Part shown: piece by piece, positions 43,112-47,473 of the stretch | How the letters are laid out: each line of letters begins with the position of its first letter | Numbering within the stretch: the stretch's first letter is position 1 | DNA from: Rhodovulum euryhalinum | GTDB taxonomy: Bacteria > Pseudomonadota > Alphaproteobacteria > Rhodobacterales > Rhodobacteraceae | Assembly: GCF_004342445.1 (NCBI RefSeq) | Contig: NZ_SLWW01000001.1 | Span: forward strand, 62,001 to 126,000 | Direction of reading: 5' to 3' | Length of the DNA stretch: 64,000 nt | The notes under the pieces: generated by a model | Databases searched by the model: none | What the model was told of the DNA's origin: nothing | Seen by the model: the letters and a program-made list of their open reading frames with translations, nothing else | Translations under genes and position numbers: made by a program

Positions 43112-43154
43112 GCGGATGTGTCATGTTGTCCCGCGAAACACGGGGAGTCGATCC

Positions 43155-44798
43155 ATGCGCATTGTCTTTGTCCATCCCAACTACAGGTCCGGTGGCGCCG
43201 AGATCGCGGGCAACTGGCCGCCAGCCTGGGTGGCCTACCTGACCGGTTCGCTGCGAACCGCGGGATATGACGACATCATATTCGTCGACGCGATGACCAA
43301 CAACCTCAGCGAGGACGCTGTCCGCGCCGAGTTCCGGCGGCTGAAGCCCGACGTGGTGGCGTCGACCTCGATCACGCCGTCGATCTATGCCGCCGAACGG
43401 TTGTTGCAGATCGCACAGGAAGAGGTGCCGAACGCGGTGCGTGTTCTGGGCGGCATCCACGCCACCTTCATGTTCAAGCAGGTGCTGTCCGAGGCGCCGT
43501 GGGTCGACGTGATCGTCCGCGGCGAGGGCGAGGAAATCGTCGTCGAACTGATGAACGCGATCCGCGATGGCAAATGGCCGGAAAGCCGCCGTGACATCAA
43601 GGGCCTGGCCTTCCTCGACGGTGACGAGATCGTGGCGACCGCCGCCGCGCCCACCATCAAGGATCTCGACGCGATCAAGCCCGACTGGGACATCCTTGAG
43701 TGGGAAAAGTACATCTACATCCCGCTGAACTGCAAGGTCGCGATCCCCAACATGGCGCGCGGCTGCCCGTTCACCTGCTCGTTCTGCTCGCAGTGGAAGT
43801 TCTGGCGCGACTACCGCATCCGCGACCCGAAACTCGTCGTCGACGAGATTGAGGAGCTGGTGAACAAGCACGGCGTCGGCTTCTTCATCCTTGCGGACGA
43901 GGAACCCACGATCAACCGCAAGAAGTTCATCGCCTTCTGTCAGGAACTGATCGACCGCGGCCTGCCCGACAAGGTCAAGTGGGGCATCAACACCCGCGTC
44001 ACCGACATCCTGCGCGACGAGGAACTGCTGCCCTTCTACCGCAAGGCCGGTCTCGTCCATATCAGCCTCGGCACCGAGGCCGCGGCGCAGTTGAAGCTTG
44101 ACCAGTTCAACAAGGAAACCCGCGTCGAGGACAACAAGCGCGCAATCCAGTTGCTGCGCGATGCCGACATCCTGACCGAGGCGCAGTTCATCGTGGGGCT
44201 CGACAACGAGACCCCCGAGACGCTGGAAGAGACCTTCCAGATGGCCTGGGACTGGCAGCCCGACCTGGCGAACTGGGCGATGTATACGCCCTGGCCGTTC
44301 ACGCCGCTGTTCCAGGAACTGCACAACAAGGTCGAGGTGTTCGACTACTCGCGCTACAACTTCGTGAACCCGATCATGAAGCCCGAGGCGATGGACCGTG
44401 CGGAACTGCTGGACCGGGTGATGAACAACTATCGCCGGTTCTACATGCGCAAGGCGCTGTTCCACTATCCGTGGCGCGGCACCGGGTTCCGCCGCCGGTA
44501 TCTGCTGGGCTGCCTCAAGGCGTTCCTCAAGGCAGGCGTCGGGCGGACCTTCTACGATCTCGGCAAAAACAACTACTGGGGGCCGCAGTCCAAGGACAAG
44601 GTCAAGTTCGAGTTCGACATGACCCGCCAGCCCGCCCAGGCCCAGATCGCGGATTGGGAATCCGCCGCCGACCGCGCTGCACAGGCGCGCGCCAGGCGGC
44701 AATCGGCTGACAACTCGTTCAAGATGCCCGCCGAGGGCAATGCCGCAGAGGTCAAGGTCTGCGGTGGCGGCGACCAGCAACTGGAAGACGCAAGATGA
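43155..44798 (+). CDS. bchE: Anaerobic Mg-protoporphyrin IX monomethyl ester cyclase
   Basis: Oxygen-independent enzyme that forms the isocyclic (E) ring of bacteriochlorophyll using water as oxygen source, with B12 and radical SAM chemistry. The 547-residue protein has an N-terminal cobalamin-binding domain (about 1-140) and the radical SAM CxxxCxxC at C204, C208, C211 ([10 protein letters not shown]). The N-terminus [25 protein letters not shown] is close to known BchE. The ATG at 43155 has a GGGGAG site; an upstream in-frame ATG at 43116 sits in the promoter. It is coupled to bchJ (ATGA). Confidence 0.95.
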
Positions 44799-45391
44799 AG
44801 GATACCCTGTCCGGCCATTCGGGCCGGATCGGACCGAATGCCGTCCTCCAGTTGCTCCCTGTGCTGGAGACGGCGGGCGGCGGGGCGCTTCGCGACGAGA
44901 TGCTAGAGGCGGCGGGCCTGTCGGAACCCCCGTCGGACACCGGCCTTATGGACGAGGGACCGGCCGCCGCCATGCATCGCGCCCTGCGCCGCCGCCTGCC
45001 CGGCCGCGCGCCCGACCTCCTGCGGGAGGCGGGCGCGCGGACCGGGGACTATATCCTTGCCCATCGCATCCCGGCCGCGGCCCAGAAGGTGCTGAAGGTG
45101 CTACCCGCCGCACTGTCCGCGCCGATGCTGGCCAAGGCCATCGCCAAGCACAGCTGGACCTTCGCGGGCTCGGGCCAGTTCCGCATCGTCTCGACCCGGC
45201 CGCTGGTGTTCGAACTGACCGACAACCCGCTGATCCGGGGCGAACATGCGCCGCACCCGATCTGCGGCTGGCACGAGGCGGTGTTCGACCGGCTGTTCCA
45301 GACGCTGGTGGACCCGCGCCTGCGCACGCGCGAGACGAAATGCACCGCAAGCGGCGCCTCGGTCTGCCGCTTCGAAATCACCCGCGGCTAG
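44795..45391 (+). CDS. bchJ: BchJ, V4R-domain protein of bacteriochlorophyll synthesis
   Basis: Small protein of 198 residues annotated historically as the 4-vinyl reductase; later work assigns the main 8-vinyl reduction to BciA/BciB or COR, and BchJ may be an accessory that carries or channels intermediates. The V4R domain is recognisable by its C-terminal [13 protein letters not shown]. The ATG overlaps the bchE stop. A 12-bp hairpin after the stop ends the two-gene unit. Confidence 0.9.
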
Positions 45392-45487: not shown

Positions 45488-47473
45488 ATGCATCCCTTCC
45501 GCAGCCATACCTGCGCCGAGCTGACCAAAGCGAACGTGGGCGAGAATGTGCGCCTCTCGGGCTGGGTGCATCGCGTGCGCGACCACGGCGGCGTCCTGTT
45601 CATCGACCTGCGCGACCATTACGGCGTGACCCAGGTGCTGGCCGACAGCGACAGCCCGGCCTTTGCCGCGGTGGAAAAGGTGCGCAGCGAGTGGTGCATC
45701 CGCATCGACGGCGAGGTGAAGGCCCGCGAGGAAAGCCTGATCAACCCCAAGCTGCCCACCGGCGAGATCGAGGTCTTCATCCGCGACGTCGAGGTGCTGG
45801 GAAGCGCCGAGGAACTGCCGCTGATGGTCTTCGGCGATCAGGACTACCCCGAGGAAACGCGGCTGCGCTATCGCTACCTCGACCTGCGCCGCGAGGGGAT
45901 GCAGGAGAACATGAAGCTGCGGTCCGACGTGGTGGCCAGCATCCGGCGGCGGATGTGGGACAAGGGGTTCCGCGAATACCAGACGCCGATCATCACCGCC
46001 TCCAGCCCCGAGGGCGCGCGCGACTTCCTGGTGCCCTCGCGGCTGCATCCGGGACGCTTCTACGCGCTGCCGCAGGCGCCGCAAATCTTCAAGCAGCTGA
46101 TCATGGTCTCGGGCTTCGACCGCTATTTCCAGATCGCGCCCTGCTTCCGCGACGAAGACCCCCGCGCCGACCGCAGCCCCACCGATTTCTACCAGCTCGA
46201 CATGGAGATGAGCTTCGTGTCGCAACAGGACGTGTTCGACACGATCCAGCCGGTGATCGCGGGCGTGTTCGAGGAATTCGGCCGCGGCCACAAGGTCGAC
46301 CAGCACTGGCCCCAGATCTCCTATGCCGACGCCGCGAAATGGTATGGCACCGACAAGCCCGACCTGCGCAACCCGATCAAGATGCAGGACGTGTCCGAGC
46401 ATTTCCGCGGCTCGGGCTTCGCCATCTTCGCCAAGCTGCTGGAGCAGGACGGCACCGAGATCCGCGCGATCCCCGCGCCCGGCGGCGGCTCGCGCAAGTT
46501 CTGCGACCGGATGAACGCCTTTGCCCAGAAGGAAGGGCTGCCGGGGATGGGGTATATCTTCTGGCGCGACGTCCCAGGGCCGTTCCACGGAGATCAGATT
46601 TGGAGCAAGATTCGGCTCTGGATGAATGGGAAACTCACAGACAAGGAACTTGTTGAGCGCGGTCTTATTCAGACGAGTCCTGAACAGTGGAACCGGCTAG
46701 ACGAGCTTATGGCAGAGTTCCATGCTGAAGATCCAATCGGAAAAGAAAAAGTTAGAGAGAAGATAGTTCGAGACTTTGGGCCTTCGAGGATGGAGGCAGC
46801 GGGGCCGCTCGCCAAGAACATCGGCGAGGACCGCACCGAGGCGATCCGCCAGCAACTGGGCCTCGGCAAGGGCGACGCCGCGTTCTTCCTCGGCGGCAAG
46901 CCCGCGGCCTTCGAATCCGTCGCGGGCCGCGCGCGCAACGTCATCGGCGAGGAACTGGGCCTGACCGAGAAGGACCGCTTTGCCTTCTGCTGGATCGTCG
47001 ATTTCCCGATGTACGAGAAGGACCCGGAAACCGGCGCCATCGACTTCAGCCACAACCCCTTCTCGATGCCGCAGGGCGGCATGGCGGCGCTGGAGGGCGA
47101 CCCGCTGGAGGTGCTGGGCTATCAGTACGACCTGGCCTGCAACGGCTATGAACTGATCTCGGGCGCGATCCGCAACCATCGCCTCGACGTGATGTTCAAG
47201 GCGTTCGCGCTGGCCGGCTATGCCGAGGACGAGGTGCGCGCCCGCTTCCCCAGCCTTGTCAACGCCTTCCGCTTCGGCCCGCCGCCGCACGGCGGCTGTG
47301 CTGCGGGGATCGACCGGATCGTGATGCTGCTGGCCGACGAGGCGAACATCCGCGAGGTCATCATGTTCCCGATGAACCAGCGCGCCGAGGACCTGATGAT
47401 GGGCGCGCCCACGCTGCCCACGAACGAGCAACTGCGCGAATTGCGGCTGAGAGTGATCCCCGAAGAGGAGTGA
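45488..47473 (+). CDS. aspS: Aspartyl-tRNA synthetase with a 73-residue foreign insert
   Basis: Charges tRNA-Asp (and possibly tRNA-Asn, if an amidotransferase is present). The protein has the anticodon-binding OB fold (about 1-110), class II motif 2 ([23 protein letters not shown]), the bacterial GAD insertion domain, and motif 3 ([14 protein letters not shown]). It is 661 residues, against about 590 in relatives I recall. The excess is residues 362-434, between GYIFWRD and [10 protein letters not shown] inside the GAD region. That stretch is about 50% GC with codons rare here, while both flanks are typical. The reading frame is intact, so the enzyme is probably still made. Start at 45488, MHPFRSHTC. 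Confidence 0.95.
46571..46789 (+). other. In-frame low-GC insertion within aspS
   Basis: 219 bases (73 codons) absent from the usual AspRS sequence. By hand count 109 of 219 bases are G or C, and about 47% in the last 199, against about 72% in the 60 bases after it. Codons such as AGA, ATA, GTT and CTT occur here but hardly in the flanks. The encoded segment is charged and helical ([20 protein letters not shown] and what follows). GGGCCGTTC near the left edge and GGGCCTTC near the right edge might be an imperfect direct repeat. I do not recognise the peptide. Confidence 0.8.

Follow-up and report, generated by a model that had tools for sequence, protein, structure and literature searches.

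A hypervariable insert slot in the GAD domain of Rhodobacteraceae aspartyl-tRNA synthetase, with fillings apparently exchanged between relatives

The window, a stretch of 64,000 nucleotides from Rhodovulum euryhalinum, contains an aspartyl-tRNA synthetase (AspRS) gene, aspS, which is interrupted in frame by a long additional coding segment. The following features of this locus are referred to throughout.

45488..47473, forward strand: aspS, aspartyl-tRNA synthetase of 661 amino acids, an open reading frame with its ATG at 45488 and its stop at 47471-47473.
46541..46570, forward strand: upstream anchor of the slot, ending in ten conserved-flank residues, defined by alignment and GC3.
46571..46789, forward strand: hypervariable insert of 73 codons (V362-R434), which replaces the four-residue GAD loop of 12 of the 16 genomes of the genus.
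46679..46777, forward strand: predicted C-terminal helical hairpin (residues 398-411 and 416-430), from AlphaFold2, with a local pLDDT of about 60-80.
46790..46819, forward strand: downstream anchor of the slot, beginning with ten conserved-flank residues, defined by alignment and pair comparisons.

The aspS product has the composition of a bacterial AspRS, with an OB-fold anticodon domain, a class II core and a GAD domain (Pfam matches OB-fold, E=2.1e-15; tRNA-synt_2, E=3e-108; GAD, E=6.2e-5), and aspS is the sole match of this protein in the genome at E<=0.001. Alignments to the AspRS structures 4wj3, 1eqr and 1c0a in the Protein Data Bank (PDB) flank the insert on both sides, and in E. coli AspRS the slot corresponds, by sequence alignment, to the interval from chain position 353 to 366. 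No asnS gene was found in the genome, in which the asnS model matches aspS only, below its cut-off. Since no AsnRS was found, AspRS presumably serves both Asp and Asn codons; it is probably non-discriminating and feeds both decoding pathways via GatCAB, the known route by which a single AspRS can supply Asp as well as Asn. Putative photosynthesis genes adjoin aspS: the open reading frames upstream (window 43116-45391) encode what we take, by their look, to be a radical-SAM protein of the BchE type and a V4R protein of the BchJ type.

The insert comprises 219 nt, is free of stops and sits between GYIFWRD and a ten-residue stretch of the downstream anchor. The first-pass annotation, made from the sequence alone, had described 73 extra in-frame residues in the GAD region of an AspRS that is ordinary on both sides, about four residues at the same place in relatives, low G+C and scarce codons, and this picture of a foreign-looking segment in an essential gene is supported in all these points. 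Its borders, V362 and R434, are exact, and the net gain is 69 residues compared with a 592-residue congener that has no insert. G+C is 0.50 in the insert and 0.67 in the flanks, and GC3 is 0.53 compared with 0.92 upstream (three border codons counted in); of the 76 insert codons, again including the three at the border, 29 are of kinds that occur no more than twice among the other 585 codons of aspS. Across carriers, GC3 of the upstream anchor is host-like right up to the slot border. In a GC3 scan of the coding-like reading frames of the window, the insert is among the lowest patches (0.40 over 40 codons); two other frames reach 0.40-0.42 near open-frame starts, where the true gene start may differ, and a few contain shallower internal dips of 0.53-0.62.

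The imperfect repeat that had been proposed at the edges of the insert could not be substantiated. The longest word common to both junctions is 6 nt, no more than expected by chance, and over 70 distinct inserts the shared word averages 4.86 nt, compared with 4.90 nt for mismatched junctions. Direct or inverted repeats of 10 nt or more are absent from 46541-46819. Junction comparison and repeat search together rule out target-site repeats. An assembly chimera, which had also been considered, is unlikely because many independent assemblies have inserts at the same site.

Comparison of 16 Rhodovulum genomes showed that 12 have a four-residue loop at this position (GENG, KDGE, TDGQ and alike) and an AspRS of 591-592 amino acids, while four, including that of the window, carry an insert. 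These four carriers are R. euryhalinum (L003), R. tesquicola (L004), R. strictum (L005) and R. steppense (L006), with inserts at one and the same codon, of 73 residues in the window and of 68, 61 and 50 residues among the other three. The flanking protein sequences of these sister species are 95-97% identical, whereas the inserts are four different pieces with only 18-34% identity.

We then surveyed the family, with one genome per species and a 181-residue region from a congener without insert as the query; 382 of the 394 genomes searched were matched. The slot is filled in at least 95 of these 382 genomes (94 loci and the window), a lower bound that counts the window and the 94 genomes in which the match splits in two at the slot, which were fetched. 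Forty-four of the filled slots contain a conserved insert of 29-30 residues, 50 contain a hypervariable insert of 35-92 residues with low GC3, and one is masked by N. Among the matches listed, those crossing the slot in one piece leave no room for an insert, and those of two genomes (G350 and G311) stop at or before it. The conserved piece ('...ADAVAQELGITVKEAQAKLKSGEVEGG...'; L062-L155, L162-L241) is found in many genera, and on the tree its carriers are interspersed with empty and hypervariable slots. In one genus (that of G376), an insert is present in one of ten matched genomes (11 searched). Outside the family, 135 of 140 genomes of a class sample were matched, and one match was split at the slot: this sole case, from another family (G431:C149:2815-3438), has an AspRS with roughly 30 additional residues at this site. 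One genome contains two partial aspS genes at contig ends, one crossing the slot without an insert and the other with a long insert (G197:C24:5-451 and G197:C38:15-785, respectively), which may be a pair of alleles, the sign of a second strain or a product of the assembly. Across the family there is one GAD-domain slot, at a fixed site and with a hypervariable filling, and the window's insert is one example of it.

The hypervariable inserts differ from each other far more than the genes that carry them. Pairwise identity among 69 distinct, fully flanked inserts has a median of 0.23, compared with 0.83 in the flanks, and insert and flank similarity are uncorrelated (Mantel r=0.0007 and p=0.49 over 2000 permutations, or r 0.06 and p 0.11 when local scores are used). 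For not one of the 69 carriers does the closest relative by gene also supply the best-matching insert. Among copies of the conserved piece of 29-30 residues, median identity is 0.81 and r is 0.22 (82 rows; pairs among the first 60).

Clustering of 73 inserts with phmmer (single linkage, E<1e-3) yielded a superfamily of 46, five small groups and 16 singletons, one of which is the window's insert; shuffled inserts gave zero matches below 1e-3 in 5329 comparisons. Much of the insert diversity therefore shares ancestry. The best-supported type, F1, is characterized by the C-terminal motif 'A.FL.NAYFG..E'. The inserts of R. tesquicola and R. strictum are distant members of this type and are recovered by leave-out F1 profiles at 4.4e-13 and 4.1e-12, respectively; the other two Rhodovulum inserts are singletons, and the F1 profile (A2) has no match in the window's genome at E<=1. 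Placement of the window's insert in a second type, F2 ('...SGDPLD..A...FGP'), was not upheld by a leave-one-out test: a profile built without it scores it at E=1.2 and 7.3 bits, below the best shuffle (13.7 bits), and the F2-type profile that includes the window's own insert is circular for that insert. Among single inserts, L146 comes closest to it, at E=0.003 compared with 0.014 for the best shuffle. Judged by these comparisons, the window's insert appears to be nearly an orphan, with no secure type placement.

Codon composition separates the two kinds of filling as well. GC3 of the hypervariable inserts is 0.50 compared with 0.83 in the flanks and is the lower of the two in 70 of 70 cases; its dependence on the host's GC3 is weak (r 0.28, slope 0.24), in contrast to that of the conserved insert, which tracks its host (r 0.66, slope 0.88). 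The first-pass annotation had named the same segment, with host-like composition and in many relatives, as the mark of an old lineage-specific domain. The window's segment is not of this kind, but the description does fit another insert, the conserved piece of 29-30 residues that other genera of the family have at this site. The hypervariable domains seem confined to aspS genes of high GC3, yet keep their own GC3 at about 0.50. This low GC3 could stem from unsampled low-GC donors or could itself be maintained.

Because the window's insert has no close relative, protein-level selection was measured on other inserts. Twelve pairs of related inserts (791 codons, the window's insert excluded) differ by 0.33, 0.24 and 0.64 at codon positions 1, 2 and 3; pS is 0.68-0.94, which is near saturation, and pN is 0.17-0.38. 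The neighbouring 100 codons are under tighter constraint (pN 0.05-0.19). By this pattern of substitution, related inserts are coding and evolve under protein-level selection.

Their composition is acidic (Glu 13.9%, Asp 7.7%), and the insert is probably a small helical domain, a structural lead that comes from modelling. AlphaFold2 models from 16 and 13 sequences are poor overall (mean pLDDT 47.8 and 47.1, pTM 0.30 and 0.34), with the GAD and insert region of both at a pLDDT of about 60-80 and the inserts drawn as helices between two strands. A hairpin similar to that predicted for the window's insert is predicted in the insert of L207, which is of another type. Foldseek with the second model returned AspRS chains at TM-scores near 0.2 and was uninformative on the insert.

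The first-pass annotation had likened the segment to the dispersed coding elements of Rickettsia or to a small mobile, spliced or bypassed element, and none of these suggestions found support. The insert has a single copy in its genome, with the next match at E=0.52, and neither insert profile finds anything outside aspS in the 16 Rhodovulum genomes at E=0.05. The F1 profile matched eight of 198 family genomes, all at the aspS slot; these eight are among the profile's own rows, and the informative part is the zero matches elsewhere at E<=0.001. No convincing relative was found in phage records for the window's insert and two others (best E=0.09), in IMG/VR for six single inserts, or in plasmids for the window's insert. 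Taken together, the genome, Rhodovulum, family, phage-record and plasmid searches rule out a dispersed or mobile element, and a phage origin of the inserts was rejected on the searches of phage records (three inserts) and IMG/VR (six).

Signs of splicing or of a structured RNA are likewise absent from the sequences searched. None of 70 inserts has HN in its last six residues, as an intein end would, and none begins with Cys or Ser, the first residue being Glu or Lys in 51 of 70. A group I or II intron is not indicated by any Rfam match up to E=1 in 46300-47100, and predicted RNA folding of the insert does not exceed that of shuffles (z 0.20), so that an RNA element was ruled out. The protein-level conservation of related inserts (the window's excluded) speaks against splicing, and it also argues against ribosomal bypassing.

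Database searches for known families were equally unproductive. For the window's insert, neither Pfam and PHROGs (up to E=1) nor NCBIfam (up to 0.1) gave a match. Searches of PDB sequences gave a best E of 0.097 for the A1 profile and of 0.0078, to a designed protein, for the A2 profile, and PADLOC, run on 22 F1-type members only, gave one match, in one member, at E=0.012. Overall, Pfam, PHROGs, NCBIfam, PADLOC and PDB sequences contained nothing convincing for the inserts tried, with scattered best values of E=0.004-0.01 from single members or to the designed protein. As F1 has no match outside aspS and none elsewhere is convincing, the pool of insert versions may circulate as aspS alleles. 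In the portions of the open PMC literature covered by our search, no description of an AspRS GAD slot was found.

A FastTree phylogeny of AspRS without the insert, calculated for 196 rows enriched for carriers, unites the four Rhodovulum carriers in one clade with a support of 100, and at least 35 changes between empty, conserved and hypervariable slot states are needed on this tree. The clearest trace of exchange comes from R. tesquicola and R. steppense (L004/L006), whose aspS genes are 97-99% identical except around the insert (far-flank identity 0.985 and 0.988). Downstream, 31 differences fall in the first 240 nt and four in the next 360 (Fisher p=1.2e-9); upstream, 20 of 300 nt differ compared with nine of 600 (p=7.8e-5), the bin limits having been chosen after the profile was seen. 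Over the 240-nt downstream tract, the insert-free congener L007 is closer to R. tesquicola (0.883) than is its sister R. steppense (0.871). This divergence peak fits homologous exchange of aspS alleles.

In several close carrier pairs, the 120-240 nt after the slot border are more divergent than the remaining flank. Near-downstream identity in eight carrier-carrier pairs is 0.844 compared with 0.923 and 0.934 farther away; in seven insert-free pairs it is 0.931 compared with 0.932 and 0.922, and six carrier/non-carrier pairs have a slight dip only (0.869 compared with 0.905 and 0.884). The compared pairs share species and are not independent of each other. The dip is not unique to hypervariable inserts, since three conserved-insert pairs have it too (0.856 compared with 0.921 and 0.939). 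For the window's own pairs it is uneven: near identity is 0.808 with R. tesquicola, 0.842 with R. strictum and 0.900 with R. steppense, in which last pair it compares with 0.911 and 0.933 far from the slot. The simplest reading of these tracts is that the insert was imported with part of its flanks by homologous recombination, and inserts are apparently exchanged between relatives in this way. Among the surveyed genomes, no two distant species turned out to share a near-identical insert; the donors are therefore unsampled, and transfer is inferred from the tracts and from the incongruence between insert and gene.

With moderate confidence, we favour the following overall explanation. In Rhodobacteraceae AspRS, one GAD loop would serve as the slot for an additional small domain, probably helical and made as part of the enzyme, and homologous recombination in the highly conserved flanks would exchange the whole coding segment of this domain between species. 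Such replacement would leave close relatives with very different versions or with none, and the window's 73 codons would be one such exchanged version. The exchange would proceed by allelic recombination in general, and gene transfer agents or a similar uptake of DNA might carry it. RcGTA of Rhodobacter capsulatus moves random genomic DNA, which integrates by allelic replacement (PMC9690577), and PMC9836097 cites a GTA-like particle from Rhodovulum sulfidophilum. The window's genome contains two strong matches to GTA_TIM (PF13547; G000:C21:30594-31490 and G000:C8:153263-154150), which perhaps mark two gene-transfer-agent-like clusters.

That the inserts are exchanged has good support; what keeps them diverse is less sure. 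A first guess is that rare versions of the insert are favoured by some variable partner or antagonist, such as an AspRS-binding protein of a phage or competitor. AspRS would be a rewarding target for an antagonist since it presumably serves both Asp and Asn codons. In the searches made, no partner or antagonist of the insert was seen. Only tentatively do we extend this to the idea that the GAD loop is an 'antigen-like' hypervariable site, a cassette exchanged among aspS alleles, perhaps via gene transfer agents, and diversified by phage or competitor proteins that attack AspRS.

The strongest rival, which does without an arms race, is a tolerant loop, an account that is possible but that we do not hold to be probable. 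Here the GAD loop would accept extra helices, the inserts would drift and be exchanged by ordinary recombination and would persist only through the rarity of a clean in-frame deletion, and low GC3 would reflect relaxed codon selection. Non-carriers do have a variable four-residue loop at the site, 12 of 16 genomes of the genus manage without an insert, and low GC3 is uniform over the inserts. Against drift in a tolerant loop stand the preservation of protein sequence within types, where pN is well below pS, the C-terminal motif retained by F1, and the fact that at least 50 of 382 genomes carry 35-92 extra residues in this essential enzyme.

An old domain that was inherited vertically, evolved very fast and was lost many times, all without transfer, is unlikely. 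It would account for the union of 46 of 73 inserts in one superfamily (single linkage, E<1e-3) and for the single clade formed by the Rhodovulum carriers. It is at odds with the Mantel r of 0.0007 and the 0 of 69 carriers whose best insert match is also their closest relative by gene, as well as with the divergence peak around the slot between R. tesquicola and R. steppense. Furthermore, GENG-type loops are alike in non-carriers of different genera, and independent deletions would hardly restore such loops.

We give similarly little credence to an embedded immunity- or antitoxin-like domain, which would be small, helical, diverse, specific for a partner toxin and riding in an essential protein. 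The size, diversity and acidic composition of the inserts and the different versions in sister species are what such a domain would lead one to expect; against it stand the lone PADLOC match and the searches made, in which neither a stand-alone relative nor a partner was seen. A selfish or spliced in-frame element (a Rickettsia-type palindromic element, an intein, an intron or a bypassed segment), suggested by the in-frame position and foreign composition in an essential gene, is very improbable given a single copy without inverted repeats, intein ends or an Rfam match, different sequences at one site instead of one sequence at many, and the protein-level selection in related inserts.

In returning to the favoured reading, an exchanged GAD-domain filling, we compared it with known systems. 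Rickettsia palindromic elements are likewise short in-frame inserts in conserved bacterial genes, but there one repeated palindromic sequence is inserted in many genes, whereas here many sequences occupy one aspS slot, with no palindromes and a single copy. Conserved signature indels are a known class of in-frame insertions, and the 29-30-residue insert resembles them and lies in the same loop as the hypervariable inserts; its sequence is conserved (median identity 0.81) and its codon use follows that of the host, neither of which holds for the hypervariable inserts. Closest in behaviour are recombining hypervariable cassettes such as HsdS target-recognition domains and the loops of outer-membrane proteins, in which a variable segment is exchanged via conserved flanks and close relatives are very different. 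Those cassettes belong to surface, restriction or secreted proteins, in contrast to an essential cytoplasmic translation enzyme. Among synthetases, the CAAD domain is a conserved membrane-anchoring domain common to several enzymes, unlike the aspS insert, which is hypervariable and found only in AspRS. The two are alike in being lineage-specific extra synthetase domains, CAAD in the cyanobacterial aminoacyl-tRNA synthetases (PMC4893482).

With its dozens of small domains in a single host protein, the slot amounts to a natural library, and it gives reason to look in Rhodobacteraceae for phage or competitor proteins directed at AspRS. Aminoacyl-tRNA synthetases are usually seen as slowly evolving cores of translation, and a hypervariable, apparently swapped piece is unexpected inside so conserved an enzyme as AspRS. 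If a slot that differs almost completely between sister species is indeed exchanged, this would mean either a strong and variable pressure on AspRS or a far greater tolerance of domain shuffling in essential enzymes than is assumed; and if the antagonist-driven reading is true, there would be a molecular arms race within a translation enzyme.
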